From an uncultured Bacteroidota bacterium (GTDB lineage: Bacteria; Bacteroidota; Bacteroidia; Chitinophagales; Chitinophagaceae): 44,639 nucleotides of DNA. Positions 2 to 23,526 of the stretch are shown one piece after another. The position numbers and the translations under genes are program-made. Where the stretch lies: contig CAIVKC010000062.1 of assembly GCA_903906365.1 (NCBI GenBank), forward strand, positions 1 to 44,639, written 5' to 3'. Under the pieces are notes generated by a model. That model did not search any database and had not been told where the DNA came from. It worked only from the letters and a program-made list of their open reading frames with translations. Positions within the stretch are counted from its first letter, which is position 1, and every line of letters starts with the position of its first letter.

Positions 2-841
2 CTGGTGTCCAAGGCCATCCGCAAACACGGAATGACCGTGGCTCTTTCCGGTGTGGGAGGGGATGAATTATTTGCGGGCTATCCCATCTTTTCCCAATAC
101 CTCCAGCTCCAGCAAAACCGATGGCTCTGGAAGATCCCGGCTGCCCTGCGGGCAGGAATTTCCGGGGTTACCCTGCCTGGTTCCGGGGGCAATAAAAAAG
201 GCAGGATGCGGCAGATCCTCAATGCACCCGGCTGCAGTATTGACCAGGTTTACCCGGTCCTGCGTCAGATATTTTCAAACCGGCAGATTCAGCAGCTCAC
301 CCGGCTGGGTGAAAAAGGCCCTCTGACAAATACCCTTCAGCAGGAACTGCTGTCAAAAAAAGAATATATCGACCGGCTTCCCTATTTAAGCCAGCTGTCT
401 GTAGCTGAATACTTAGGATATACCCAGCATACCCTGCTCAAGGATACCGACCAGATGAGCATGGCCGTTTCCCTGGAAGTCAGGGAGCCCTTCTTTGACC
501 AGGACCTGGTGGAATATGTACTGGGGGTACCGGACCGGATCAAAAAACCGGTTTATCCCAAAAGCCTGCTGGTGGAATCGCTCAAACCCCTGCTGCCCCA
601 TGAAGTGGTCTTTCGTAAAAAGAAAGGTTTTCTGTTTCCCTGGAGTAACTGGCTTAAAAATGAACTCTTTTCGTTTTGCGACAGCCATATCCGCAGTATG
701 GCCGGCCGGCCTTTCATAAAGGGAAATGAACTGATCTCCTGCTGGGAGCGTTTTGTGAAAGGAGATGAAAACGTCCGCTGGACAGAGGTCTGGCTTTTTA
801 TCGTGCTTGATTACTGGATGGAAAAAAATAACATCGAATAA
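2..841 (+). CDS. asnB: Asparagine synthetase (glutamine-hydrolysing)-like protein, C-terminal part, 5' truncated
   Basis: Only the C-terminal ~279 residues of the synthetase domain lie in the window; the reading frame is open at the left edge, so the N-terminal glutaminase domain and the true start are upstream. The segment SGVGGDELFAGYP near the left end matches the conserved AsnB synthetase segment (LSGxGxDELFxGY), and the later stretch TLLKDTDQMSMAVSLEVREPFFD is the typical family block around the active site. AsnB-type enzymes use glutamine nitrogen and ATP to amidate a carboxylate. In polysaccharide clusters they are often thought to amidate a uronic acid rather than aspartate, and that fits the sugar-acid type genes directly downstream (inference). 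The next gene begins 13 bases after the stop. The family is certain; the substrate is not. Confidence 0.9.
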   Translation: MVSKAIRKHGMTVALSGVGGDELFAGYPIFSQYLQLQQNRWLWKIPAALRAGISGVTLPGSGGNKKGRMRQILNAPGCSIDQVYPVLRQIFSNRQIQQLTRLGEKGPLTNTLQQELLSKKEYIDRLPYLSQLSVAEYLGYTQHTLLKDTDQMSMAVSLEVREPFFDQDLVEYVLGVPDRIKKPVYPKSLLVESLKPLLPHEVVFRKKKGFLFPWSNWLKNELFSFCDSHIRSMAGRPFIKGNELISCWERFVKGDENVRWTEVWLFIVLDYWMEKNNIE

Positions 842-854
842 CCCGGATCCCCCG

Positions 855-1880
855 TTGAACTACCCTGCACTTCAATTTGCAATTATTGGCTGCGGCCGCA
901 TCGCCGAACGGCATGCCCGGCAGATTTCGGCCCTGGGCTCAAAGCTTGTTGCCGTCTGTGACCGGGATCCGCAACGGGCACTGGATTTCGGTTTGGCCCA
1001 TGGCGCCAGGCCATACCCGGAAATCGGTCTGCTGCTGGATGGGGAAAAGGAGTTGGATATTGTAGTGGTCTGTACGCCCAACGGCCTTCATGCAGAACAC
1101 AGCATCCGGGCTTTGCAGGCGGGATTCCACGTAATTTGTGAAAAACCCATGGCCCTGCATGTTTCAGACTGCCGCGACATGCTGGAGGCTGCGCGCCTGG
1201 CCCGAAGGCAGCTCTTTGTCGTCAAACAAAACCGGTTCAATCCTCCCGTGAAGGCCCTCAAAGGCCTGCTTGTAGCAGGCAGGCTGGGCCGGATCTACAG
1301 CGTGCATGTCAACTGCCTGTGGAACCGCAATGCTGACTATTACAGCAATTCCTGGAAGGGAACCATGGACCTGGATGGCGGTATTCTGTATACCCAGTTC
1401 AGTCATTTTATCGATCTGCTCTACTGGATGATCGGGGATATCACTGACGTAAAGGCCTTTACAGCCAACCTGTGTCACCAAGGCTTCATTGAGTTTGAAG
1501 ATACGGGCGTGGCATGCTTTCAATTTGAAAACGGCGCCCTGGGGACCCTGCATGTCAGCATCAACGCGTATCTCAAAAACATGGAAGGATCCCTGACTAT
1601 ACTGGCCGAGAAAGGATCCGTCAAGGTGGGCGGTGAGTATCTAAACCTGCTGGAATACCAGTTACTGGAAGGGACGCAGATCCCGGAACTTTCCTCCGGC
1701 AACAGCGCCAATGACTATGGCACTTACCGGGGCTCCATGTCCAACCACGATAAAGTGTATGCCCATGTCCGGGAAGTCATTGCCGCCGGCGCGCCTAACC
1801 GGATGGATGGCCAGGAAGGACTGAAAACAGTGGAGATCATTGAAAAAATTTACGCAGCAGCCCATGGATCCCATCATTAA
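855..1880 (+). CDS. Gfo/Idh/MocA-family sugar dehydrogenase, WbpB/WlbA-like
   Basis: This is an NAD(P)-dependent oxidoreductase of about 341 residues. The Rossmann fold starts at once (FAIIGCGRIAERHA), followed by CTPNGLHAEH, the family signature CEKPMAL with its catalytic-type lysine, and the C-terminal block LDGGILYTQFSHFIDLLYW. These blocks resemble the WbpB/WlbA group, which oxidises UDP-N-acetylglucosaminuronic acid at C3 ahead of amination and N-acylation. I place the start at a TTG at 855, 13 bases after the asnB stop, because a longer frame opening at ATG 765 would lie inside asnB and add non-family sequence. The gene overlaps the next start by 17 bases. No WbpE-type aminotransferase is visible, so it may lie upstream or be elsewhere. 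The exact substrate is inferred. Confidence 0.82.
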   Translation: MNYPALQFAIIGCGRIAERHARQISALGSKLVAVCDRDPQRALDFGLAHGARPYPEIGLLLDGEKELDIVVVCTPNGLHAEHSIRALQAGFHVICEKPMALHVSDCRDMLEAARLARRQLFVVKQNRFNPPVKALKGLLVAGRLGRIYSVHVNCLWNRNADYYSNSWKGTMDLDGGILYTQFSHFIDLLYWMIGDITDVKAFTANLCHQGFIEFEDTGVACFQFENGALGTLHVSINAYLKNMEGSLTILAEKGSVKVGGEYLNLLEYQLLEGTQIPELSSGNSANDYGTYRGSMSNHDKVYAHVREVIAAGAPNRMDGQEGLKTVEIIEKIYAAAHGSHH

Positions 1881-2328
1881 TCAAATAGGCATCAAAGACG
1901 TGGAATTCGGCACCGATGTGCAGATCGTCCAGCCCGTAAACCTGTATGGATGCCGCATTGGCAGCCATGTATTCATCGGCCCCTTTGTGGAGATCCAGCG
2001 GAATTCCCGAATCGGTGACCATACGCGCATCCAGTCCCACAGTTTCATCTGTGAACTGGTCTCCATCGGGGAGAGCTGTTTCATTGCCCATGGTGTGATG
2101 TTTATCAACGACACTTTTTCAACCGGAGGGCCGGCCGGCCGCCAGGGACAGGCTTGGAAACCCACAGTGGTTGGCAGCCATGTATCCATCGGCTCCAATG
2201 CAACCATTCTGCCGGTCAGCATCTGCGATCATGTGGTGATCGGTGCCGGAGCGGTTGTTACCAAAGATATTACCCTGCCGGGCTATTACGCGGGTAACCC
2301 TGCCCGGTTGATTAAAGAAAAGCCCTGA
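1864..2328 (+). CDS. WbpD/WlbB-like sugar N-acyltransferase (left-handed beta-helix)
   Basis: This ~154-residue protein is built almost entirely of hexapeptide repeats (for example VQPVNLYGCRIGSHVFIGPF and TVVGSHVSIGSNATILP). It carries the segment HGVMFINDTFS, similar to the FTND segment of WbpD-type enzymes, and ends in GAGAVVTKDITLPGYYAGNPARLI, the usual terminus of nucleotide-sugar N-acetyltransferases. Such trimeric enzymes acylate a 3-amino group on a UDP-sugar, classically from acetyl-CoA. I chose ATG 1864 because the family N-terminus begins there; an upstream in-frame ATG at 1840 lies deeper inside the preceding gene. It is translationally coupled to the WbpB-like gene, supporting consecutive steps. 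Given the acyl-carrier genes downstream, its donor may be something other than acetyl-CoA (inference). Confidence 0.8.
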   Translation: MDPIINQIGIKDVEFGTDVQIVQPVNLYGCRIGSHVFIGPFVEIQRNSRIGDHTRIQSHSFICELVSIGESCFIAHGVMFINDTFSTGGPAGRQGQAWKPTVVGSHVSIGSNATILPVSICDHVVIGAGAVVTKDITLPGYYAGNPARLIKEKP

Positions 2329-2349: not shown

Positions 2350-3495
2350 ATGGATAACAAAAAAAAGATATTGGTACTGGTGGATTGGTTTGCACCCGGA
2401 TACAGGGCCGGAGGGCCCATCCAGTCCTGCGTTAATTTTGCCTTTGCCCTCAAGGAGCATTTTGAGATCCTGGTGCTTTCCACCGATACGGACCATGGGG
2501 AATCCGAGCCATATCCGGGCATTGTTGCCAATGAATGGACCCGTTCCCTGGACCCTGATATCGGGGTCTATTATGCGGCCAAAAAGACCCTGACCCTTTC
2601 GCAGCTTCGCCGGGTCATGCTGGAATCTAAAGCGGATTATATCTATCTCAATCACCTGTTTTCCCCCCGTTTTGTGGTATATCCCCTCTGGCTGGCATTC
2701 AGGGGAAAACTGGCCAGCCGGTTGGTGCTTTGCCCCCGGGGCGCCCTCTATGAAAGTGCGCTGGCGGTAAAGCCCTACAAAAAACGTCCATTCATCAGGC
2801 TGTTTAACTGGATGGGCATACACCGCAAGATCACTTTCCATGCGACCAATGACCGGGAAAGAGCAGCGATCCTGGCGTATTTTCCGGGAAGCCGTGTGCT
2901 GGTCGCAGATAACCTGCCCAATGCCAAACAGCCTCCTTTTAAGGGAATTGAAAAAAAAGCCGGCTCCCTTTCCTGCATCTTCATTGCCCGGATCGTACCG
3001 ATCAAGAACCTGCTTTACCTGCTGGAGACCCTGGAAAACCAGGCTGCTACCATCCAATTGACGATCGTGGGCCCAGCCGAGGACGAGGCTTACTGGAGCC
3101 TTTGCGCGCAAAAAATAAAGGCCTTGCCTTCCAATATTACGGTCAATTACCTGGGAGCCATCGACAACAAGGAACTGATTGCTTTATTGCAGTTGCATCA
3201 CCTCTTTATACTGCCTACCGAAGGGGAGAATTTTGGACATTCCATTTTTGAGGCCCTGCTGGCCGGCCGGCCGGTACTGATCAGTGACCAGACCCCCTGG
3301 CAGGGTCTGGCAGCCAAAAAAGCCGGATGGGACTTACCTTTGGGAAATCCCTCCTCCTTTGGGGACGTGATCGCCCAAACGGCAGGCTGGGATCAGCAGG
3401 CCTTTGACCAGTGGGCAAGGGCCAGCTGGCAGTATGCCCGGGACTTCATTCAAAACCCCGAACTTATCAAACAATACCTGGACCTGTTCATATGA
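2350..3495 (+). CDS. GT4-type (GT-B fold) glycosyltransferase
   Basis: The 381-residue protein begins with KKILVLVDWFAPGYRAGG, the acceptor-side Rossmann domain with a glycine-rich loop. The donor domain follows: ARIVPIKNLLYLLETL and then the diagnostic EX7E-type block in PTEGENFGHSIFEALLAGRPVLIS. This is a retaining glycosyltransferase of group 1 (GT4), which transfers a sugar from a nucleotide donor to the growing lipid-linked repeat unit on the cytoplasmic face of the membrane. No membrane segment is obvious. The stop overlaps the start of the next gene in an ATGA arrangement, so the two are probably translated together. Donor and linkage cannot be read from the sequence. Confidence 0.9.
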   Translation: MDNKKKILVLVDWFAPGYRAGGPIQSCVNFAFALKEHFEILVLSTDTDHGESEPYPGIVANEWTRSLDPDIGVYYAAKKTLTLSQLRRVMLESKADYIYLNHLFSPRFVVYPLWLAFRGKLASRLVLCPRGALYESALAVKPYKKRPFIRLFNWMGIHRKITFHATNDRERAAILAYFPGSRVLVADNLPNAKQPPFKGIEKKAGSLSCIFIARIVPIKNLLYLLETLENQAATIQLTIVGPAEDEAYWSLCAQKIKALPSNITVNYLGAIDNKELIALLQLHHLFILPTEGENFGHSIFEALLAGRPVLISDQTPWQGLAAKKAGWDLPLGNPSSFGDVIAQTAGWDQQAFDQWARASWQYARDFIQNPELIKQYLDLFI

Positions 3496-4046
3496 ATCCA
3501 AAACAAGTAAACAACGCAGCCTACCAGACCACCATCGCCATCGGGGCTTCCAGGTTCACCCAGACCAGCTGGTATTTTATCAATATCCTGTTCTTCAAGA
3601 ACCCCCTGAATGTATTTTCTTCCCTGAAGGTCTTCCTGCTTAAACTCTACGGAGCCAAACTGGGAAAAGGCGTGGTCGTTAAACCTTCGGTGAATATTAA
3701 ATTCCCCTGGAAACTCCGCATGGGAGACCATTGCTGGATCGGGGAAGAAGTATGGATTGATAACCTGTCGGAGGTAACCACCGGCTCCCATGTGACGCTC
3801 TCCCAGGGAGCCCTGCTGCTGACCGGAAGCCATGATCACACCAAGACCACGTTTGATTTTAATTCCCAGCCCATTGCGCTGGAAGACGGGGTATGGATCG
3901 GGGCCAGGGCCGTGGTATTCGGGGGGGTAACCTGCCGCTCACACAGCATCCTGGGAATTGCATCGGTAGCAGAAAGGGACCTGGAAGCCTATACCATTTA
4001 CAAGGGCAACCCGGCTACGGCGGTGATAAAAAGAATCATCCACTAA
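3492..4046 (+). CDS. WcaF-like polysaccharide O-acyltransferase
   Basis: This 184-residue hexapeptide-repeat protein has the size and layout of colanic acid acetyltransferase WcaF. An N-terminal stretch (FFKNPLNVFSSLKVFLLKLYGAKLG) leads into the beta-helix with WKLRMGDHCWIGEEVWID, the active-site segment GSHDHTKTTFDF containing the likely catalytic histidine, and VWIGARAVVFGGV. The family transfers an acetyl group from acetyl-CoA to a sugar hydroxyl. ATG 3492 is chosen because it overlaps the preceding stop by four bases (ATGA) and gives the family length; an earlier in-frame start at 3411 would lie inside the glycosyltransferase. It sits directly upstream of the E1/E2/carrier genes, which makes it the other candidate acceptor of their acyl group. 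Confidence 0.85.
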   Translation: MNPKQVNNAAYQTTIAIGASRFTQTSWYFINILFFKNPLNVFSSLKVFLLKLYGAKLGKGVVVKPSVNIKFPWKLRMGDHCWIGEEVWIDNLSEVTTGSHVTLSQGALLLTGSHDHTKTTFDFNSQPIALEDGVWIGARAVVFGGVTCRSHSILGIASVAERDLEAYTIYKGNPATAVIKRIIH

Positions 4047-4094: not shown

Positions 4095-6035
4095 ATGATG
4101 CAGGCTATAAAAATAAACCATCGAATCATCAAAGAAGCCCTTCGGATCCGCAAGGTGGAGGAAAAATTTCTGCAATTGTTCTCCCAGGGGAAACTCAACG
4201 GGACAGTGCATACCTGCGTTGGACAGGAGTTTTCGGCGGTCGCTTTTGCAGGCCAGCTGAAAAAAAAGGATTTTATTTTTTCCAACCACCGCTGTCATGG
4301 TCACTATATCGCCTTTACGGGCGATGTAAGGGGCCTGCTTGCCGAATTGCTGGGCAAGGCTTCCGGGACCAGCGGGGGCATAGGCAGCAGTCAGCATCTT
4401 TGCCACCATAATTTTTTTTCCAACGGAATCCAGGGAGGCATTGTCCCGGTGGCAGCGGGCTATGCCCTGGCGGGAAAACTAAAAAACAACGGCGCCATCG
4501 GGATTGTCTTTATCGGGGACGGCACCCTGGGAGAAGGGGTGCTCTATGAGACCATGAATATCCTGTCCAAATGGGAGATTCCCCTGCTCATCGTCTGCGA
4601 AAACAATTTCTACGCCCAGTCCACCCCGCAGCATATTAACCTGGCCGGTGATATCCAGGCAAGGGCCCGGGCATTTGGCATCAGGACCTTCAAAGGGAAC
4701 ACCTGGGAGCCGGAACTGCTCATGGAGCAGTCCGCTGAAGCCATTGCCTTTGTCAGGGACCAGCAGAAACCCTGCTTTTTCCAGGTGGATACCTACCGGC
4801 TAAATGCGCATTCCAAGGGCGATGATGACCGCGACCCCGAAGATGTCGCCCTGCACCGCCAGAAGGACTACCTGCATATTTTCCAGCAGCAGTCCCCCTC
4901 CTATTACCAGATGTATGAAGAGGCCATCAACCAGGAAATCGATGCCATGGTCGAGGAAATATTCAAAGAATCGGACCTGCCGATAGAAAAATATTTCCAG
5001 CCCTCCACCAGGACCGACGACAGGGAATGGAAGACGCTGGAGCCGGTCAACAAACGCCAGGTAGAACTGATCAATACTTTTTTTCAGGAAAAACTGGTCT
5101 CGGATGAACGCACCGTATTTCTGGGGGAGGATATCCATTCACCCTACGGGGGAGCCTTCAAAGTCACCAAGGAACTGTCTTTTCTGCGTCCGGAGCGTGT
5201 ATTTACCACCCCGATTTCAGAAGCTGCCGTAGTGGGTATATCCAACGGACTGGCGCTGAACGGCTTTCGGCCGATTACCGAAATCATGTTCGGGGATTTC
5301 ATGACGCTGGCCATGGACCAGATCATCAATCATGCCTCTAAGTTTCACCATATGTTCAACCGGAAAGTGAACTGTCCGGTTGTCATCAGAACGCCCATGG
5401 GCGGCAGGCGGGGATATGGTCCCACCCATTCCCAGACACTCGACAAATTCCTGGTGGGCATTGACAACGTGAAGACCGTTGCCCTCAATACCTTCATAGA
5501 CCCGGCCCTTATTTACCGGTCGGTTTCATCCGAAGAACATCCGGTGATTGTCATAGAAAACAAAACGGATTACGGCAAGAAGCTCCTGCATACCCGGCCG
5601 CGCAATTTCACCTGCCAGGCCAATGGCGACCCCTATCCGGTGGTCAGGATCAGTCCCGCTGTATCGGCACCCACCCTTACGCTGGTTGCCTACGGCGGCA
5701 TGGCGGATATGGCCGCCTCCCTGCTGGAAACTATTTTTTCGGAAACCGACCTGCTGGCGGAGCTCATCATACCTTCCCTGATATCGGACCTGCCCCTGGA
5801 CATTCTCACCGAGTCTGCCTCCAGGACCGGCAGGCTGGTGGTCTTGGAGGAAGGCAGCCCCTTTGGTGGCATCGGGGGAGAATTGATTGCGGGGGTAACT
5901 GAAAAGGCGGATGTTAAAATAAGGGTTCGTCGCATTGCGGCATTGCCGGTTCCCATACCTTCGGTCAAATCACTGGAACACCTGGTGCTGCCCGAAAAAA
6001 ACCGTATTATTCAGGAATTAAAGGAAAGCTTTTAG
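4095..6035 (+). CDS. Fused E1 alpha/beta subunit of a thiamine diphosphate-dependent 2-oxoacid dehydrogenase-like complex
   Basis: The 646-residue protein joins an E1-alpha domain (about 1-300) to an E1-beta domain (about 318-646). The alpha half has SNHRCHGHYIAFTGD, GTSGGIGSSQHL and the thiamine diphosphate motif GDG (141-143) ending in ENN (169-171). The beta half has LGEDIHSPYGGAF near 343-354 and RTPMGGRRGYGPTHSQT. E1 enzymes decarboxylate a 2-oxoacid (or, in some relatives, cleave a ketose) and pass the acyl group to the lipoyl arm of E2. It starts 48 bases after the WcaF-like gene (ATG 4095, or the adjacent ATG 4098) and is followed by its E2 after four bases. There is no E3 in the window. 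Its position inside a polysaccharide operon is unusual for a catabolic complex. The acyl substrate is unknown. Confidence 0.88.
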   Translation: MMQAIKINHRIIKEALRIRKVEEKFLQLFSQGKLNGTVHTCVGQEFSAVAFAGQLKKKDFIFSNHRCHGHYIAFTGDVRGLLAELLGKASGTSGGIGSSQHLCHHNFFSNGIQGGIVPVAAGYALAGKLKNNGAIGIVFIGDGTLGEGVLYETMNILSKWEIPLLIVCENNFYAQSTPQHINLAGDIQARARAFGIRTFKGNTWEPELLMEQSAEAIAFVRDQQKPCFFQVDTYRLNAHSKGDDDRDPEDVALHRQKDYLHIFQQQSPSYYQMYEEAINQEIDAMVEEIFKESDLPIEKYFQPSTRTDDREWKTLEPVNKRQVELINTFFQEKLVSDERTVFLGEDIHSPYGGAFKVTKELSFLRPERVFTTPISEAAVVGISNGLALNGFRPITEIMFGDFMTLAMDQIINHASKFHHMFNRKVNCPVVIRTPMGGRRGYGPTHSQTLDKFLVGIDNVKTVALNTFIDPALIYRSVSSEEHPVIVIENKTDYGKKLLHTRPRNFTCQANGDPYPVVRISPAVSAPTLTLVAYGGMADMAASLLETIFSETDLLAELIIPSLISDLPLDILTESASRTGRLVVLEEGSPFGGIGGELIAGVTEKADVKIRVRRIAALPVPIPSVKSLEHLVLPEKNRIIQELKESF

Positions 6036-6039
6036 ATAA

Positions 6040-7365
6040 ATGGCACTATTACAACAGATACCAGTTCCCTTACTGGCCGTCAATGACACCACCCTGACGG
6101 TGGTTGAAATCACCCGCCGCAGCGGAGAGCCCGTCCGCAAAGGTGACCAGCTGATGGTATTTGAAACCTCGAAGACCACTTATGAGGTAGTGGCTGAGGC
6201 GGATGGTTTTGTGGAATTCCTCTGTGAGGTGGATGGTGATTATGAGGTGGGTGCGGTGGTGGCCCGAATTTTCAGTGAGGCGGCTGAAGTTGCGACAAGG
6301 CAGGCCCCCGCCCAGCCCGGACGTTCTGAACAGCCTGTTCCGCCGGCCTCCAAAGACATCGCTCTCGCAGTCTGGGAAGGGGAGACTCTTTTTTCACAGG
6401 CCGCCTTGCAAATGATGGAGGCGCGGGCCATAGCAAGAGGCTCTTTTGCCGGAAGGGACTTTGTCAGCGCACGTGATGTCGAGGCGCTGGAAGCCGGTTT
6501 GAAAAAACCGGCCACTTCTGCCGGGAATCCTTCCGGTGATGGACCTGCCCGCAGGCAGCGGCCTGTATTGCCGGCAGACCCCTCCCGGGTGATCATCGAA
6601 AAACTCACTTCGGGCAAGCGCCGTGAAATTGAATACTTAAGTGAGGTGCAGTCCACCGGACTGACCAGCACCCTCCATACTTTTTTTGAAACCCGGGGTA
6701 TTTTTGGACATATCAACCATTCCATGCAGTACCTGAAAAATTCGCTGCTGCCGGTTATTTGTTATGAAACCAGCCGGCTGCTGCGCAAATACCCTGCACT
6801 CAATGGATATTTCACCGGGGAAGCCGTGGCCTATTACAGGGAGGTAAACCTGGGCTTTGCCATAGATATTGACAAAGGGCTTAAAGTGCTCAAACTGGGC
6901 GCTGCCGACAGCCTTTCGCTGCCGGAGATTGAACAGGAAATCATGCGGCTCTCCAACCAGTACCTGGACGACAAGCTAGACATCGGCGATCTCACGGATA
7001 TTACTTTTACCATCACCGATCTGTCAGGCGAGGGGGTTTCCTTTTTTAAGCCGCTGGTAAATAAGATGAACAGCGCCATACTCGGGGTATCGTCGATCGA
7101 CGAACAGTTAAAGCGTTGCACCCTGTCTGTGACCTTTGACCACCGGGTATCGGAGGGAAAGATGGTGGCCCGGTTCCTATCAGATCTTAAAGGACGGCTC
7201 GAGTCCTACCAGTCCAGGTTCCATCCTGCCGTCCACAAGGAGATCACCTGTTTTAAATGTTTTAAATCCCTGCAGGAGGACCTGGGGGATACGGGCTTTG
7301 TGCAGTGCATCACTCCCCAGGGGCAGGAAGCCTATATTTGCCAGAGTTGTTTAAAAGGATTTTAG
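6040..7365 (+). CDS. Atypical dihydrolipoyl acyltransferase (E2) with C-terminal Cys4 motif
   Basis: The 441-residue protein has an N-terminal lipoyl domain (about 1-80) with lysine 45 in ETSKTT as the likely lipoylation site. A weak peripheral subunit-binding region follows (FSQAALQMM to SARDVEAL, roughly 123-160), then an Ala/Pro-rich linker and a catalytic domain from about 195. The usual catalytic signature HRxxDG reads HRVSEG at 368-373: the histidine is kept, the aspartate is glutamate. After the catalytic domain comes a ~40-residue tail not usual for E2 proteins, with CxxC at 404-407 and 434-437 plus Cys423, which looks like a small zinc ribbon. The catalytic core looks somewhat divergent. 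It sits four bases after E1 and four bases before the carrier-protein gene, so the three are surely cotranscribed. E2 assignment is firm; the acyl acceptor may be the neighbouring carrier domain rather than CoA. Confidence 0.85.
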   Translation: MALLQQIPVPLLAVNDTTLTVVEITRRSGEPVRKGDQLMVFETSKTTYEVVAEADGFVEFLCEVDGDYEVGAVVARIFSEAAEVATRQAPAQPGRSEQPVPPASKDIALAVWEGETLFSQAALQMMEARAIARGSFAGRDFVSARDVEALEAGLKKPATSAGNPSGDGPARRQRPVLPADPSRVIIEKLTSGKRREIEYLSEVQSTGLTSTLHTFFETRGIFGHINHSMQYLKNSLLPVICYETSRLLRKYPALNGYFTGEAVAYYREVNLGFAIDIDKGLKVLKLGAADSLSLPEIEQEIMRLSNQYLDDKLDIGDLTDITFTITDLSGEGVSFFKPLVNKMNSAILGVSSIDEQLKRCTLSVTFDHRVSEGKMVARFLSDLKGRLESYQSRFHPAVHKEITCFKCFKSLQEDLGDTGFVQCITPQGQEAYICQSCLKGF

Positions 7366-7369
7366 CCAT

Positions 7370-8119
7370 ATGGAAGAAAAGATTAAAGAGGTATTGGCTG
7401 TCTATATTAATGTCCCGGCTGACAGGATCGGGCCTTCCACGGCCATTGACCGTTCTGCGGTGAACAGCTCCATCATGCTGCACAGGATGTATGCCAGGCT
7501 GGCCGGCCTTGGATATGTGGTGGAAAACTACCAGGAACTGTCCCGGTTCAGTGACCTGATGGAGCGCCTCCATCCGGCAGGCTCACCGGGCGCTGTGGAA
7601 TTGTCCAACCAGCCGGAAATGGCAACGGCCGCCCATAAGGAGGCCGGTATTGCCCCGGAACAGTCCATCGGCATAGACCTGGAACAGGTGAGCGCCCTGC
7701 CGAAATCAACCGATTTCCGGGAGGATCCTTTTTATACCATGAATTTCAGCCCCGCTGAAATGGCGTATTGCATCCTGCAACCAGACCCCTACAGTTCCTT
7801 TGCCGGACTGTTTGCGGCCAAGGAGGCCATGGTAAAGGCCGATAACGGGTTTAAAAAGCGCCCCTTCAGCGAACTGGTCATTGACCACGAGCCGGGCGGT
7901 AAACCCATCCACCCCGATTTCAGCCTTTCCATTTCCCATGCCGGTGAATGGGCCATAGCCGTGGCGGTCAGGCAGGTTCCGCCAGCCAGGACCACCCCAG
8001 CGGTCCCGGCGCAGGCCAGGGAGGTTTCCCCCGCCAAAATGAACAGGACGGCCCTGCTGCTTTTTATTGCAGCGGCCCTGCTTTGTCTGGGATCAATAAT
8101 TATATCGCTGAAACATTAA
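7370..8119 (+). CDS. Fusion of acyl carrier protein-like domain and AcpS-type phosphopantetheinyl transferase with C-terminal membrane anchor
   Basis: Residues 1-70 have the helical pattern of an acyl carrier protein. Serine 34 (in NSSIMLHRMYARL) aligns with the phosphopantetheine serine of the ACP motif, although the usual DSL is replaced. Residues 98-200 match holo-ACP synthase: IGIDLEQV with Asp103, AAKEAMVKA with Glu152 (the two metal ligands of AcpS), and LSISHAGEWAIAVAV. After a Pro/Ala-rich linker the last ~25 residues form one hydrophobic helix (ALLLFIAAALLCLGSIIISL) ending in LKH, a tail anchor. The protein may therefore prime its own carrier domain and hold it at the membrane where polysaccharide is made. 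The gene is four bases after the E2 gene and 19 bases before a glycosyltransferase. The PPTase call is strong; the ACP call rests on pattern only and is less sure. Confidence 0.75.
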   Translation: MEEKIKEVLAVYINVPADRIGPSTAIDRSAVNSSIMLHRMYARLAGLGYVVENYQELSRFSDLMERLHPAGSPGAVELSNQPEMATAAHKEAGIAPEQSIGIDLEQVSALPKSTDFREDPFYTMNFSPAEMAYCILQPDPYSSFAGLFAAKEAMVKADNGFKKRPFSELVIDHEPGGKPIHPDFSLSISHAGEWAIAVAVRQVPPARTTPAVPAQAREVSPAKMNRTALLLFIAAALLCLGSIIISLKH

Positions 8120-8138: not shown

Positions 8139-8885
8139 ATGAAGGTCTCCATCATCACCGCTACTTTTAACAGCGCCGGTACCATTCGGGATACCCTGGC
8201 CTGTGTGCAGTCGCAGGAGCATCCCGATATAGAGCATATCATCATCGACGGGCAATCAGGAGACCAGACCCTCTCCATTGTGTCTGAATTTCCCCATGTG
8301 GCTGCCGTGGTGAGTGAAAAGGACCATGGAATCTATGATGCCATGAACAAGGGCATTGCCCGGGCGACCGGGGAGGTCATCGGGATACTGAACTCCGACG
8401 ACCTCTATGTGGACCAGCGGGTCATTGCCGAGGTGGCCGCGGAATTTGAGGATCCCGCAGTGGAAGCCACCTATGCCGACCTGCAGTACGTGCATCAGGA
8501 AGATATTTCCAAAGTGGTCCGGACCTGGAAGACCGGATTATACAACAAAAAGAAGTTCTATTACGGCTGGATGCCTCCCCATCCCACTTTTTTTGTCCGA
8601 AGAAAGGTCTATGAACGGGTCGGGCTCTTTGATACCAGCCTTCGTTCTGCTGCCGACTATGAGATGATGCTGCGGATACTGCTCAAGCATGAGGCCCATA
8701 CCCGTTACATCCCCCGGGTGATCGTAAAGATGCGATCAGGCGGCATGAGCAATGCTTCTTTCCGCAACCGGCTCAAGGCCAACCAGGAAGACCGGATTGC
8801 CTGGAAGCTCAATGAATTGAAACCTTATTTTTTTACGTTGTATGCCAAACCGATTCGAAAAATTTCACAATTTATAATCAAATAG
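8139..8885 (+). CDS. GT2-family glycosyltransferase, WcaA-like
   Basis: The 248-residue protein opens with [20 protein letters not shown], the GT-A nucleotide-binding start of family 2, followed by [11 protein letters not shown] and the metal-binding DXD-like segment [30 protein letters not shown] is the acceptor-side block typical of colanic acid WcaA/WcaE-like transferases. It is an inverting, cytoplasmic, peripheral enzyme adding one sugar to the repeat unit. It stands four bases before gmd, so GDP-fucose or GDP-mannose is a plausible donor, but the sequence does not decide this. Confidence 0.88.
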
Positions 8886-8889
8886 TATT

Positions 8890-10005
8890 ATGGCCAAAGT
8901 TGCACTAATTACAGGCGTTACCGGACAGGACGGGGCTTATTTAAGTGAATTGCTGCTCAGCAAGGGTTATGTCGTTCACGGCATCAAAAGGAGGACCTCC
9001 CTGTTTAATACCGACCGGATCGATCATCTCTACCAGGACCCCCATGAGTCCAACGTGCATTTCAGGCTACATTACGGAGATCTGACCGACTCCACCAACC
9101 TCATCCGCATCATACAGGAAGTGCAGCCCGACGAGATTTATAATCTGGCGGCCATGAGCCACGTGCAGGTCAGTTTTGAAACACCCGAATATACGGCCAA
9201 CGCAGATGGCATCGGCACTTTAAGGATATTGGAGGCAGTCAGGCTCCTTGGCTTAACGGCTAAAACCCGTGTATACCAGGCCTCCACCTCCGAACTCTAT
9301 GGCCTGGTGCAGGCGGTCCCGCAGTCCGAGACCACGCCTTTTTATCCCAGGTCCCCTTATGCCGTGGCGAAGTTATACGCCTACTGGATAACGGTAAACT
9401 ACCGGGAAGCCTATAAAATGTATGCCACCAACGGTATCCTGTTCAACCACGAATCCCCGCTTCGCGGGGAGACCTTTGTTACCAGGAAGATCACCCGGGG
9501 AGTGGCAAAAATTGCCCTGGGGCTCCAGCAAAAGATCTACCTGGGTAACCTGGACGCCAAACGGGACTGGGGACATGCAAAGGATTACGTGGAAGCCATG
9601 TGGCGGATCCTGCAGCAGCCTGAACCGGAGGACTATGTTATCGCCACCGGGATCACCACCTCGATCCGGGATTTTGTGCGAATGGCTTTCCGGGAGATCG
9701 GCGTGGAACTGGAATTTAAGGGCAGCGGGGAACATGAAGTCGGCATCGTCCGATCTGCTGTCAATCCGGATTATCCGGTGGAGACAGGACGGGAAGTGAT
9801 TGCCGTTGACAGGAAGTATTACCGGCCCACGGAAGTGGACCTGCTCATCGGGGATGCCAGTAAGGCCCAGCTCAAACTGGGCTGGACTCCCAAATATGAC
9901 CTGCCGATGCTGGTTACCGAGATGGTGCAGGCCGACCTGGAGTGCTTCAAAAAAGAAAAAATACTCAAAGAATCAGGTTTCAACATCAAAAACCAGTACG
10001 AATAA
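8890..10005 (+). CDS. gmd: GDP-mannose 4,6-dehydratase
   Basis: This 371-residue extended SDR enzyme converts GDP-D-mannose to GDP-4-dehydro-6-deoxy-D-mannose, the first step to GDP-L-fucose. The NADP-binding loop [11 protein letters not shown] (8-18) and the following KRRTS segment are characteristic of Gmd. The catalytic set is visible as Thr133 and Glu135 in STSELYG, and Tyr157 and Lys161 in [25 protein letters not shown] is the conserved substrate-binding stretch. Length is normal. It is followed 33 bases later by GDP-fucose synthase, the next enzyme of the pathway. Confidence 0.97.
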
Positions 10006-10038: not shown

Positions 10039-10968
10039 ATGAACAAAGAAGCTAAGGTATATGTAGCAGGCCACCGGGGCATGGTGGGATCTGCCATCCT
10101 GCGAAAACTCCAGTCTGAAGGATTTACCAACCTCGTGTTGAGGACATCTGCAGAACTGGACCTGCGGGACCAGCAGGCCACCCTGTCTTTTATGGAGACT
10201 GAACGCCCCGATTACGTGTTGTTGGCCGCTGCCAAAGTGGGGGGTATCCTCGCCAATAATATCTACCGGGCCGATTTCCTCTATGACAACCTGATGATCC
10301 AAAACAATGTCATACACAGCGCTTATCGCACGGGCGTTAAGAAGCTCCTGTTCCTGGGATCTTCCTGCATCTATCCCAAATTGGCCCCCCAGCCCCTTAA
10401 GGAAGAATACCTGCTCACCGGGGAACTGGAGCCCACCAATGAGCCCTATGCCATTGCCAAGATTGCCGGAATTAAACTCTGTGATGCATACCGCTCCCAG
10501 TATGGGTGTAATTTCATCTCAGCCATGCCCACCAACCTCTACGGCCCCAACGACAATTATGATCCAAGTAGTTCCCATGTCCTTCCGGCACTGATCCGGA
10601 AATTCCATGAGGCCAGCAGGGACAAGGCCCCTTCGGTGACCCTCTGGGGATCGGGAAAACCCAGGCGGGAATTTCTGCATGCCGATGACCTGGCGGATGC
10701 CTGTTATTTCCTGATGCAGCATTATGATGAAGCGGGATATGTAAATATTGGCTGGGGCGAGGACATTGAAATAAAAGAACTGGCCCAGCTCATTAAGAAA
10801 ATATCCGGTTACACAGGAGACATTATCCATGACACCTCCAAACCGGACGGCACCCCCAGGAAGCTGATGGATGTAACCAAATTAAGGAATATGGGCTGGC
10901 AGGCCTCCATCAGCCTGGAAGAAGGCATTAGAAAAGTATATCAGGATTATATAAAAGTTAATAACTAA
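10039..10968 (+). CDS. fcl: GDP-L-fucose synthase
   Basis: The 309-residue SDR enzyme carries out the epimerase/reductase step from GDP-4-dehydro-6-deoxy-mannose to GDP-L-fucose using NADPH. The coenzyme loop is [10 protein letters not shown] (11-20). The catalytic residues are in GSSCIYP (Ser108/Ser109, Cys110) and PYAIAK (Tyr137, Lys141), in the spacing known from the E. coli enzyme. Length and order match the family throughout, including [19 protein letters not shown]. With gmd it shows that the polymer contains L-fucose or a sugar derived from the same intermediate. It is also called wcaG. Confidence 0.97.
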
Positions 10969-19284: not shown

Positions 19285-22200
19285 ATGGAAAAAGCCTTAC
19301 CAACCTTACTACAAAAAAATGCTTTTCGACTGGCCGGAAAATGGATCCCGGTATTGCTGGTGACTGCTTTACTTACGGCACTGCCCGGCGTACTGAGAAA
19401 GGATCATTTCAGGGATCCCGTGGCCATAGCCGCAGCCTCCCGCCAATCACTCCGGTTAGGTTCTTTTGTACAAGGGATTACCCGCACAGGGCTTTCTTCC
19501 CAAAGGGTTAACCAGATTGGCAGGCAGCCGGTAACTGCCCCCGTCCAATCGTCGGATCTAAAGGCAAGCGACTGGTTCAAGACCGTGAAAAAGGACTTAG
19601 ATCAGCGGATCTATTCCATAGCTTCCCTGGGGGACGGAAAGACTTTTTCCAGCATCAACCCGGCCCAGGGTGTGGAAGCACATTATCAGGCATCTTCCCT
19701 TTTGCTGGAGCCTGCCTCCAGAACCAACAAAGACTGGAAACTGACCCTTCAGCTCAAAGGCGTATATGCGGATAACCAGCCATTGAAACAGGGCAGCCAG
19801 ACTGCCAGGGTGGCCGGCAGCAGGGACCTGGAATACCAGAGCGGGGATGCCTATAGCGTTCAATACCACAACGACGAAAAAGGGGTTCGCGAGAACTTTA
19901 TCATACTCAAACAGCCTTCGGCCCATACCCATGAATTGAAAGTAGGCATGCATGTGGAGGGAGACTGGATTATTAACAAGGTTCATGACCGGGAACTTCA
20001 TTTTGCCCGGACCGCCGGACAGGGCACATTGGACAATAAGATTACCTATAGTGACCTGCGGGTCTGGGATGCCACCGGTAGAGCCCTTCCCGCCCGGATG
20101 ATGCTTGACGGCGACCATAATTTTGACATCATAGCCCAGGCTGACCATGCCGTATATCCTGTAACCATCGATCCGTTGGCCACTTCCCCTTCCACCAGCC
20201 TCACCGGGGGTGCCAGTTTCGGGGTAACAACGGCCAGTGCAGGGGACGTGAACGGGGACGGTTTTTCGGATGTCATCGTGGGCGACGGAGTCGGAAACGT
20301 GACCATCTACCTGGGCAGCGCTTCCGGCCTATCCAGTACACCGGCTACCACCCTGACCGGTTTAACGCTGCATTTTGGTATTTCGGTTGCAGGTGCGGGT
20401 GATGTCAATGGGGACGGATTCAGTGATGTGGTCATAGGAGATGGCGGAGGCAACGTATATGTTTTTAACGGGTCAAATACCGGTATTGCTTCCGGTACGG
20501 CGGCGGGCGCTTCGGCCACGCTGACCGGGGTGGGCTTCTTTGGAGGCACCGTGGCCGGTGCTGGCAATGTAAACGGCGATAACTACAGTGATATCATAGT
20601 GGGTGACGGATTCGGTGATGCCTTCATTTTTACGGGCAGCGGATCTGGCATCGTTTCGGGTACGAGCGCGACGGCAGCCACCGTGCTGACAGGCAGCGGC
20701 AATTTCGGCGCCACTGTGGCCAGCGCGGGCGATGTCAATGCGGATGGATTCGGTGATGTGATCATCGGAGATGCCGGTGGAAACGCATTTGTTTTTAACG
20801 GATCTGGATCCGGCATCGCCAGCGGCACCAGTGCTTCAGCCAGTGCCACCCTGACCGGGGCCGGCAATTTCGGTTTCAGCGTGTCGGGCGCAGGGGACGT
20901 CAACGGGGATGGCTACACGGATGTGGTGGTCGGTGATAAAAGCGGCAATGCCTATGAATACAATGGGTCGGCCGGTGGCATCAGCTCCGGCAATACCGCC
21001 ACGGCTTCCACCCATCTCTCCGACGCAAGCATTCATTACGGGGTGAGCGTGGCCTCGGCCGGTGATGTGAACGGCGACGGGTTCAGCGACGTGATCGTAG
21101 GAAATGGCGGTGGTAACGCCTTTGTATATTTTGGCAGCGTAACCGGGCTGGCCACCGTGGCAAGCCCTTCCCTGTCGAATTCCGGCACTTTTGGAGCCAG
21201 TGTCGCCAGTGCGGGAGACATCAACGGGGATGGTTACAGCGATGTGGTGGTAGGGGATGCCGGCGGCAATGCCTATACTTATGTGGGTTCTCCCACCGGT
21301 TCCATTACGGTCGCCACCGTGACCCTCAACGGGCAGAATGCCGGCGACCAGTTTGGGTACAGCGTATCCAGCGCAGGGGATGTCAACGGGGACGGCTACA
21401 GTGATGTGATTGTGGGAGCCAACGGCTATGTAGGCGGTCTTGCGGGCACCAACCTGGGTGCTTTTTATATCTACAACGGCGGCCCCACAGGCCTTTCCAC
21501 CACTCCTTCCGGCACGCCGATCAGCGGTCCTGCCTTTGACGACAATTTCGGCATCAGCGTGGCTTCAGCCGGCGATGTGGATGGAGATGGTTACGGGGAT
21601 GTCATTATCGGCGGCATCGGCTACAGCACGCCCAGCCAGTACCAGGGCATCGCATATTTCTACCGGGGCAGTGCGGGCGGTATCATCAATACCCCCACCG
21701 TGATCAGCGATCCCAACAACAGCAATTACGACCAGTTTGGATACAGTGTTTCCTCAGCGGGGGATGTCAACGGGGACGGCTATGCCGACGTCATCATCGG
21801 TGCCATCGGCGCGGGTGCCAACGACCAGGGATTCGCCTATATTTATATGGGCAGCGCTTCCGGGTTGAACCTGACCCCCATTTCATTGACCAGTGCCACC
21901 AGTTATGCCTTCTTTGGCACCAGCGTGGCCAACGCAGGGGATGTCAACGGGGATGGATACAGTGATGTCATCGTGGGTACCCTCGGTGGCGGTGGTGAAT
22001 CCGCCTATATTTATTTTGGCAGCAAGACCGGCATCGCCGATGCTGCTCTGCCCAGCGTAACCCTCACGGGTTCCTACGGCAACCAGACCCGGGGTTCCTT
22101 CGGGGCCAGCGTTTCCTCAGCCGGCGATGTCAACGGGGATGGCTTCAGTGATGTCCTGGTAGGTGCCCCCAGCGCCAACGGATCGGGTACCGCAGCCCTT

Positions 22201-23526
22201 TTCCTGGGCAGCAATTCCGGGACCAATACGACGGCTGCCTCCGTGTTCTACGGAGTGGCCGGTGGTGATCAGTTCGGCATCAATGTGGCAACCGCAGGGG
22301 ATGTCAACGGGGACGGATACAGTGATATCCTGATCAAATCAGCCCGGGGTCCGGTGTACCTTTACCAGGGCAGTTCATCCGGCTTCCCGGGATCGGTATT
22401 GACCACCGCGGCCAATACGACCTATACTGACGGGGTGGATGCCACCGGAGATACTGAATTTACCACCCACCAGTCTGTGGCCAGTGCGGGGGATGTCAAC
22501 GGGGACGGATATAGTGACGTGATCTCCGGGGTCTATGAGACCTCTACCAAGACGGGTACCTCCTATGTATATTATGGTAACGGGGCTGTAGGCCACAACG
22601 CCAGCAACGTGCTCCGGTTATATAATACGGACCTCTCTACTCCCATACAGGAAATCAACCTGTTCCAGACTGTGTTCGGCCTGGGTCTTTTTGTACAATC
22701 ACCCTATGGAAAGGTCAATGGACGTCTGGTATGGGAAGAAGAGCCCAACGGCACTCCTTTTACCGGAAACCCGATTACCAACAGCGCGGGATCGACTTCG
22801 ATGCAGGCAGCCTATGGCACCATACAGACCGGTGGACATGAATTCAAGAACCTGATCAATAAGGTCAATGCCAAGGCCACCAAGATCAGGGCCAGGATAC
22901 AGTATCAGCCCACTTCGGTTACCTTCGGTCAGGTATACAGCCCCTGGATCTATTCCCAAACCTACCTGCTCGGATCCACCCCTGGGGTATTGCCGATCAG
23001 CCTGCTTAGTTTCACGGCCACTGCCGTGGGCAAGGATATCGATCTGAAATGGAAGACAGCCCAGGAGGAAAATTCCAGGAACTTCATCATTGAGCACAGC
23101 CTGGACGGCAACAAATTTACCCCGCTGGATTCAGTCAATGCGAAGGGAAATACCTCGAGCACCAGCACCTATGCCTATACCCATTTGCATCCCGCTCCCG
23201 GGGTACATTTCTATAAGCTGAAGGAAATGGACCTCGATGGCAATCCAACCTACAGCAAGATTGTGTCAGCTACCATACTGGCTGACGGACCGGAGTTCTC
23301 CGTTTATCCCAATCCGACCTCCGACCAACTGGTCATCACCTATAACGGGGTAAGTCAGAATAACCTGGTCCGGATCATGGATGGGGCAGGTAATGTGGTC
23401 AGGCAATACAACCTGAATCTGGGAAGCACCCAGACCACCGTCTCCTTAAAGGGCCTGGCGAAGGGCACCTATTTTGTACAGCTGGTCAACAGCAGTTTTT
23501 CACCTAAAATGGTTACCGTCAATTAA
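19285..23526 (+). CDS. Large secreted FG-GAP repeat protein with type IX secretion sorting domain
   Basis: The 1413-residue protein begins with a short basic stretch and a hydrophobic segment (WIPVLLVTALLTALPGVL) acting as a signal or anchor. Residues ~50-300 are not recognised. From ~310 to ~1085 come 14 FG-GAP repeats, each with a core like SAGDVNGDGYSDVIVG. The DxNGDG loops bind calcium in this family and the repeats form a beta-propeller or propeller series. After an unassigned region (~1100-1235), a beta-sandwich segment (LLSFTATAVGKDIDLKWKT) leads to a C-terminal T9SS type A sorting domain (FSVYPNPTSDQLVI to the end, ~1335-1413), which directs export across the outer membrane and attachment at the cell surface. 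Such proteins are usually adhesins or matrix components. The gene stands alone and ends at a strong terminator. Confidence 0.9.
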   Translation: MEKALPTLLQKNAFRLAGKWIPVLLVTALLTALPGVLRKDHFRDPVAIAAASRQSLRLGSFVQGITRTGLSSQRVNQIGRQPVTAPVQSSDLKASDWFKTVKKDLDQRIYSIASLGDGKTFSSINPAQGVEAHYQASSLLLEPASRTNKDWKLTLQLKGVYADNQPLKQGSQTARVAGSRDLEYQSGDAYSVQYHNDEKGVRENFIILKQPSAHTHELKVGMHVEGDWIINKVHDRELHFARTAGQGTLDNKITYSDLRVWDATGRALPARMMLDGDHNFDIIAQADHAVYPVTIDPLATSPSTSLTGGASFGVTTASAGDVNGDGFSDVIVGDGVGNVTIYLGSASGLSSTPATTLTGLTLHFGISVAGAGDVNGDGFSDVVIGDGGGNVYVFNGSNTGIASGTAAGASATLTGVGFFGGTVAGAGNVNGDNYSDIIVGDGFGDAFIFTGSGSGIVSGTSATAATVLTGSGNFGATVASAGDVNADGFGDVIIGDAGGNAFVFNGSGSGIASGTSASASATLTGAGNFGFSVSGAGDVNGDGYTDVVVGDKSGNAYEYNGSAGGISSGNTATASTHLSDASIHYGVSVASAGDVNGDGFSDVIVGNGGGNAFVYFGSVTGLATVASPSLSNSGTFGASVASAGDINGDGYSDVVVGDAGGNAYTYVGSPTGSITVATVTLNGQNAGDQFGYSVSSAGDVNGDGYSDVIVGANGYVGGLAGTNLGAFYIYNGGPTGLSTTPSGTPISGPAFDDNFGISVASAGDVDGDGYGDVIIGGIGYSTPSQYQGIAYFYRGSAGGIINTPTVISDPNNSNYDQFGYSVSSAGDVNGDGYADVIIGAIGAGANDQGFAYIYMGSASGLNLTPISLTSATSYAFFGTSVANAGDVNGDGYSDVIVGTLGGGGESAYIYFGSKTGIADAALPSVTLTGSYGNQTRGSFGASVSSAGDVNGDGFSDVLVGAPSANGSGTAALFLGSNSGTNTTAASVFYGVAGGDQFGINVATAGDVNGDGYSDILIKSARGPVYLYQGSSSGFPGSVLTTAANTTYTDGVDATGDTEFTTHQSVASAGDVNGDGYSDVISGVYETSTKTGTSYVYYGNGAVGHNASNVLRLYNTDLSTPIQEINLFQTVFGLGLFVQSPYGKVNGRLVWEEEPNGTPFTGNPITNSAGSTSMQAAYGTIQTGGHEFKNLINKVNAKATKIRARIQYQPTSVTFGQVYSPWIYSQTYLLGSTPGVLPISLLSFTATAVGKDIDLKWKTAQEENSRNFIIEHSLDGNKFTPLDSVNAKGNTSSTSTYAYTHLHPAPGVHFYKLKEMDLDGNPTYSKIVSATILADGPEFSVYPNPTSDQLVITYNGVSQNNLVRIMDGAGNVVRQYNLNLGSTQTTVSLKGLAKGTYFVQLVNSSFSPKMVTVN
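20221..22540 (+). repeat. Fourteen tandem FG-GAP coding repeats
   Basis: Repeats of about 120-220 bases share a near-constant core such as GATGTCAACGGGGACGG, visible for example at 21379, 21769, 22129, 22309 and 22495. The first seven copies are shorter and end in GGN-type loops; the last seven have longer, varied inserts. Such DNA similarity allows copy-number change by recombination. Confidence 0.85.

Follow-up and report, generated by a model that had tools for sequence, protein, structure and literature searches.

The window described here is the whole of a 44,639-nucleotide contig (CAIVKC010000062.1, our C62) from the 4.66-Mb genome of an uncultured Chitinophagaceae bacterium (assembly GCA_903906365.1), and because it spans all of the contig, the locus within it extends past the contig end. 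Three open reading frames on the plus strand (4095-6035, 6040-7365 and 7370-8119), each separated from its neighbour by four bases, form what we call the trio. The first codes for a fused thiamine-dependent E1 (Pfam E1_dh, Transket_pyr and Transketolase_C), the second for an E2 with a lipoyl domain and a 2-oxoacid_dh acyltransferase domain, and the third for a 249-residue protein, the ACP-PPTase, in which a domain resembling an acyl carrier protein (ACP) is joined to a phosphopantetheinyl transferase (PPTase; Pfam ACPS) and a hydrophobic tail. All three proteins score under the model cut-offs of NCBIfam. An earlier note, made from the letters of this DNA, had described these three genes within a polysaccharide locus and placed them between a WcaF-like acyltransferase and a family 2 glycosyltransferase (GT2); Pfam and the predicted ACP fold bear out the description, and matches to NF007797 and PF00535 the placing. 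Among the ten proteins scanned with Pfam between 765 and 10968, all of them products of glycan genes or of the trio, we found no nonribosomal peptide synthetase (NRPS) or polyketide synthase (PKS).

The trio is kept together, and kept in polysaccharide company, across genomes, which was the first check that the earlier note had proposed. A scan of named genomes for the ACP-PPTase yielded 17 loci, 16 in Bacteroidota (or its subgroups) and one in Phycisphaerales. E1 and E2 lie upstream in 15 of them, and in the remaining two (L022 and L023) the contigs stop within the E2 or the ACP gene. The WcaF gene stands 5' of E1 in 14 of the 15 E1-bearing loci, and GT2 stands 3' of the ACP gene in 14 of all 17. 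The Phycisphaerales locus has a hexapeptide gene immediately 5' of E1 and an ACP-PPTase frame without the hydrophobic tail. An E2-anchored search found matches in 12 of 394 genomes of the family, with the ACP-PPTase following E2 in 11 and the E2 truncated by a contig edge in the twelfth, while an E1-anchored search of the same genomes gave 14, the same 12 and two with a different partner, discussed below. The corresponding E1-anchored counts were 6 of 395 for the phylum and 2 of 217 for the class, each of the three including the window's own genome. Several genomes of the family set are also present, as identical records, among the named loci, so that the two sets are not independent.

The E1 carries residues expected of an active enzyme and yet stands apart from the familiar dehydrogenases. 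H38, R65, H238, E344 and H444 (numbered from the ATG at 4098), whose catalytic roles we assume, are present, and all of the catalytic residues of pyruvate dehydrogenase (PDH) type that were examined are retained. Among plasmid records it comes closest to RenH, from the renieramycin cluster (46% identity over 99%), and next to proteins of Streptomyces, Nonomuraea and S. cattleyicolor. RenH adjoins the NRPS proteins RenE and RenF and the E2 RenI, as assigned by Pfam. In Streptomyces NBC_01136 the order is MbtH, ACP, E1 alpha, E1 beta and E2, with an NRPS protein adjoining, and in the unannotated stretches of Nonomuraea and S. cattleyicolor an E2 follows E1 in both. A Paenibacillus plasmid (L049, 2450-7876) carries ACP, thioesterase, E2, methyltransferase, ACP, E1 alpha and E1 beta genes in succession, next to a ketosynthase gene.

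In a 36-row IQ-TREE phylogeny, from which an 802-residue match (L007) was left out, the window family forms a single clade with RenH, L046, L047, L048 and L049 (100/100), separate from 15 reference rows that were annotated as, or assigned by us to, PDH, acetoin, branched-chain 2-oxoacid dehydrogenase (BCKDH) or other E1s. Three of these references come from the window's own genome, and one joins alpha and beta genes from separate contigs of that genome. RenH is sister to the window family in this tree (98/97). In an enlarged tree, built after six rows of the family and two with long branches had been removed, the clade is retained (100/100) with 13 reference rows outside, and RenH pairs with L124 (100/100); the polysaccharide-associated E1 sets are therefore not one group. 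At eight positions all 21 clade rows share a residue that none of the 15 other rows has, and N63, S108, Q112, T143, D243 and K450 hold also in all eight clade rows added later. One of them, Lys450, is close to His444 and could bind a sugar phosphate. Judged by its sequence, then, the window E1 does not belong with the E1s of PDH, acetoin or BCKDH type. The earlier note had named the carrier-loading E1/E2 proteins of antibiotic synthesis as a precedent, and that analogy is supported, by proxy, through the RenH match and a tree that keeps the catabolic E1s outside.

The E2, too, departs from the catabolic pattern. It has a lipoyl lysine, K45 (6172-6174), an acyltransferase histidine, H368, and the motif DHRVSEG, in which Glu takes the place of the catalytic Asp of DHRxxDG, as it does in every family E2 scanned. 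The same position is Thr in RenI, L048, L123 and L124 and Asn in L046, L047 and L049, whereas five catabolic E2s, one of them reading DHQIIDG, keep the Asp; no motif of this type was seen in four further proteins, lipoyl or partner, encoded at the outgroup loci. We suspect that the change is an adaptation to a carrier as acceptor. Of the E2 matches in the five antibiotic-type loci searched, that to RenI ranks first (31.6% over 427 residues). PF02817, which we take to be the peripheral-subunit-binding domain, matched none of the 28 family E2s at E up to 0.1, and the operon has no E3, the sole match over cut-off in the genome sitting on another contig, C41. The C-terminal end of the E2 bears a CxxC...CxxC pattern (window 7249-7350) whose four cysteines are conserved without exception in the 28 family E2s; CxxC pairs occur also in the E2s of L025, L123 and L124, and none in RenI.

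In the third protein, Ser34 is invariant and opens a helix (34-46) of what is predicted to be an ACP-like helical fold. The PPTase domain has invariant residues; its best profile and Foldseek match is a fungal phosphopantetheine transferase (PPT), which in VIA-align ties for first place with AcpS. The protein collection holds 371 matches to the ACP-PPTase at E up to 0.001, and among the matches listed the C-terminal tail is hydrophobic in 119 of 120 relatives.

Part of the polysaccharide locus appears to share its inheritance with the trio. A GT2-anchored search matched 70 of 195 genomes, and 26 of 30 loci taken from it served as a trio-less sample after exclusion of the own genome and the trio loci L093, L095 and L101; none of the 26 genomes is among the E2-anchored matches. 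When trio and non-trio rows were placed on gene trees, their split required one change for WcaF (18 + 8 rows; SH-aLRT 86; mean of shuffled labels 7.0) and two for the family 4 glycosyltransferase, GT4 (18 + 7 rows; 6.3), against nine for GT2 (16 + 26 rows; 13.0) and seven for the GDP-mannose 4,6-dehydratase, GMD (13 + 22 rows; 10.7). The L071 rows of these trees are doubtful, its WcaF lying on the opposite strand and non-adjacent and its GT4 having a branch length of 10. From the few changes in the former pair and the many in the latter, the trio seems to move as a unit with WcaF and GT4, the genes to its right being the resident locus. Trio and non-trio WcaF proteins also differ at fixed positions (L071 excluded); as these concern one branch only, they may reflect drift.

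A second acyltransferase gene occurs in some relatives. Between WcaF and E1, six of the 15 E1-bearing loci (L009, L012, L014, L017, L018 and L020; four recognised by Pfam, two by BLAST) carry a full-length gene of Acyl_transf_3 type. We considered it as the only consumer of the trio's product and found this unsupported, because it is full length in just those six loci and is not seen in the window. Elsewhere the window's genome has six Acyl_transf_3 matches over cut-off, the best long alignment to the locus type reaching 34.7%. In L013 (Pinibacter), a C-terminal Acyl_transf_3 remnant stands before E1 at about 6536-6721, and the close relative L012 has the gene intact.

The E1-anchored searches of family, phylum and class, which yielded L121-L127, revealed a second architecture. 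L123 and L124 encode E1, E2 and a protein resembling the ACP-PPTase, but in L121, L122, L125, L126 and L127 the E1 is followed directly by one protein in which a lipoyl domain is fused to a hexapeptide acyltransferase. Among four fusions scanned with Pfam, the lipoyl domain passes its cut-off in three (that of L126, to which L127 is 87% identical, falls under it with E 0.003), and PglD_N is found in two. The N-terminal part matches the lipoyl region of E2, and the acyltransferase half matches perosamine N-acetyltransferase (3.4e-36), VioB and PglD-type structures. Among the best 120 of 155 relatives of the fusion, 105 have at least 330 residues; of these listed relatives, 98 carry the strict lipoyl-lysine motif, five a variant with the lysine and two neither. 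Neighbours at the fusion loci include DegT aminotransferases, FdtA, NeuB, a cytidylyltransferase and a Polysacc_synt_3 protein. The E1s of these loci form one group (99/98) within the carrier-loading clade, and the simplest reading is that E1 would charge the lipoyl arm and the acyltransferase domain of the same protein would acylate an amino sugar directly, possibly making the fusion a new kind of sugar acyltransferase. Since fusions follow E1s of the same clade in five loci, the clade is tied to sugar acylation. It is thus one E1 clade with three outlets: an NRPS or PKS carrier, the ACP-PPTase fusion and the lipoyl-linked sugar acyltransferase. Two further genes lie on the minus strand of the trio-like loci: in L124 (3788-5542) a Pyr_redox_2 protein that might be a dedicated E3 immediately follows the ACP-PPTase, and in L123 (10077-11531) a B12-binding radical SAM protein stands immediately upstream of E1.

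We propose, with a probability of about 0.7, that the trio makes, at the membrane, an acyl-ACP dedicated to the decoration of a fucose-type surface polysaccharide. The data establish gene content, conservation, the E1 clade, the E2 motif change, the predicted ACP fold and the tracking of the trio by WcaF and GT4; the chemical steps, the acyl group and the acceptor we infer. E1 would take a small donor, either a ketose phosphate or a 2-oxoacid, and form a thiamine-bound carbanion, from which the acyl group, oxidised en route, would pass to the lipoyl arm of E2. The catalytic domain of E2, with its altered motif, would then deliver it to the anchored ACP, on the phosphopantetheine attached by the fused PPTase, and not to coenzyme A (CoA), and the dihydrolipoyl group would be re-oxidised by the E3 encoded on C41. 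WcaF is the likely consumer, moving the acyl group to the sugar, perhaps together with the Acyl_transf_3 protein in some relatives. Acylation of polysaccharide in loci of the window type is suggested by gene company and shared inheritance; the earlier note's idea of a sugar-acylation role is in this respect strengthened, by WcaF tracking the trio, by Acyl_transf_3 in six loci and by the lipoyl fusions, while its acyl group and transfer step stand as proposals. Our first guess for the acyl group, by analogy, is glycolyl derived from a ketose, because the precedents that come closest in the arrangement of genes and in E1 sequence load glycolyl or presumably do so; in the case of renieramycin, we suppose this from the structure of the compound.

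An unlikely, though serious, alternative keeps the same module and changes the donor: a 2-oxoacid would be used, and acetyl, propionyl or a branched acyl group loaded in place of glycolyl. The retention of PDH-type catalytic residues would suit it, as does the account of pepteridine synthesis, in which a PDH-like E1 works with an E2-carrier fusion and the output follows the supply of 2-oxoacids (PMC5384830). Against this, the closest E1 found is RenH, one set within the clade has the ACP-E1-E2 order of SclQ, and the clade-specific lysine, Lys450, is a candidate ligand for a sugar phosphate. That the acyl-ACP is meant for a different product, be it a lipid or a small metabolite, and was merely placed among polysaccharide genes would fit the occurrence of E1 relatives in NRPS and PKS-type clusters; it is improbable in view of the regular flanking by WcaF and GT2, the co-inheritance of WcaF and GT4, and the absence of NRPS or PKS proteins from the ten scanned. 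Quite improbable, too, is an ACP-like domain that escapes acylation and acts as a scaffold or anchor for the complex. Typical ACPs have an Asp before the Ser, and here this Asp is not retained and Pfam is silent on the domain, but Ser34 is invariant, the fused PPTase has invariant residues and the predicted fold is that of an ACP. An ordinary catabolic 2-oxoacid dehydrogenase lying here by chance has the E1 and E2 domain content in its favour and can be dismissed, as the earlier note had argued: the E1 falls outside the PDH, acetoin and BCKDH groups, the E2 lacks the motif Asp, the partner is an ACP-PPTase, the operon has no E3 and the genome holds other E1s.

Several observations weigh against the polysaccharide-acylation proposal itself. 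The carrier domain is faint in sequence: Pfam matches the third protein at E up to 0.01 with ACPS only (it likewise misses the two annotated ACPs of L049), the hhalign probability for the window ACP is 8%, and Foldseek returns nothing for it with E under 0.001. An ACP beside the outside E1 sets is annotated for two only, L046 and L049; the match in L048, from Nonomuraea, is weak (29.6% over 71 residues, E 4e-4), and the stretch of L047, from S. cattleyicolor, gave none. The trio is patchy within the family. WcaF stands immediately before the same GT2 in 8 of 26 trio-less loci (a small sample, with 1.5 kb or less of upstream DNA), GT2 and GMD are themselves weakly clustered by trio, only 5 to 9 of 500 shuffles being as low, and WcaF is usually taken as a user of acetyl-CoA. 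In addition, most E1-bearing loci, like the window, show no Acyl_transf_3 gene before E1, and the likeness to the Qnc, Nap and Scl systems comes by proxy, through RenH and gene order, not from direct sequence comparison.

With that reservation, SclQ1-4, QncN/QncL/QncM and NapB/NapD resemble the trio in bringing E1 halves, a lipoyl E2 and an ACP into one cluster, the scleric acid cluster having a PPTase gene as well. They serve NRPS lines, whereas the trio adjoins glycan genes, its E1 is one fused chain, its ACP is fused to a PPTase and a hydrophobic tail, and its E2 ends in the four-cysteine tail. The renieramycin alkaloids presumably belong to the same class as quinocarcin and naphthyridinomycin; their NRPS cluster had no ACP-PPTase match within the 22 kb examined, and RenI (DHRxxTG) lacks the cysteine tail. 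The Streptomyces NBC_01136 set has the gene order described for SclQ1-4 in the scleric acid study, according to which deletion of SclQ1-4 leaves residual scleric acid, production being restored by added glycolic acid (PMC6335953). The pepteridine E1 and E2-T-C proteins of Photorhabdus are likened here by description: their proposed role is to charge a carrier instead of CoA, but with a 2-oxoacid donor, a pterin acceptor and an NRPS C domain (PMC5384830). Fungal fatty acid synthase (FAS) alpha likewise holds a carrier and a built-in PPT domain in one chain, although it is part of a giant FAS and the profile match stops short of the ACP part. The sugar N-acetyltransferases PglD, NeuD, PerB and VioB match the C-terminal half of the lipoyl fusions; they use acetyl-CoA, whereas each fusion comes with a lipoyl arm of its own.

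The usual account of sugar acylation invokes enzymes that depend on acetyl-CoA. In the titles and abstract openings of the open-licence PubMed Central (PMC) papers listed by our searches we recognised no description of glycan acylation driven by E1 and E2 or of a lipoyl-sugar acyltransferase fusion. A broader view, to which we give a little less than even odds, is that thiamine E1 and lipoyl proteins provide a separate route of glycan acylation, in which one E1 clade would supply either an anchored ACP, as in the window, or the lipoyl domain of a sugar acyltransferase of PglD/NeuD type, with acyl-ACP or acyl-dihydrolipoyl as donor instead of acyl-CoA and the acyl group, perhaps glycolyl, drawn from a central ketose. 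If true, some bacteria would channel a carbon unit to their surface sugars by way of a dedicated thiamine-lipoyl line, sugar acyltransferases would gain a donor other than acyl-CoA, unusual acyl groups would find an explanation, and a module known from antibiotic clusters would be at work at the cell surface.

Table 1. Features of the window around the trio (positions in the 44,639-nucleotide stretch).
Feature	Position	Strand	Basis or remark
GFO/IDH/MocA oxidoreductase	765..1880	+	Pfam PF01408, PF02894; in operon, outside conserved module
Small hexapeptide (LbH) sugar acyltransferase	1840..2328	+	Hexapep 1.1e-17
GT4 glycosyltransferase	2350..3495	+	PF00534; tracks trio on tree, 2 changes
WcaF-like acyltransferase	3492..4046	+	NF007797, 208 bits vs cut-off 192
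Fused thiamine-dependent E1 (alpha + beta)	4095..6035	+	Pfam, trees, conserved residues
E2, lipoyl + acyltransferase domains	6040..7365	+	Pfam, 28-row alignment, motif survey
ACP-like domain (predicted)	7370..7579	+	Ser34 codon 7469-7471
AcpS-type PPTase domain	7664..7963	+	ACPS, 38.2 bits vs cut-off 25
C-terminal hydrophobic helix, probable membrane anchor	8045..8113	+	AlphaFold2 helix 226-248
GT2 glycosyltransferase	8139..8885	+	PF00535; locus core with or without trio
GDP-mannose 4,6-dehydratase (GMD)	8890..10005	+	PF16363, 8.4e-151
Epimerase, taken as GDP-fucose synthase	10039..10968	+	PF01370, 3.7e-67

The fucose synthase name of the epimerase in Table 1 is our assumption. The small hexapeptide frame begins with a TTG, and its real start is probably more internal. 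Further to the right, at 19285-23526, the window encodes a 1413-residue repeat protein with what appears, judged by eye, to be a C-terminal sorting-type tail.

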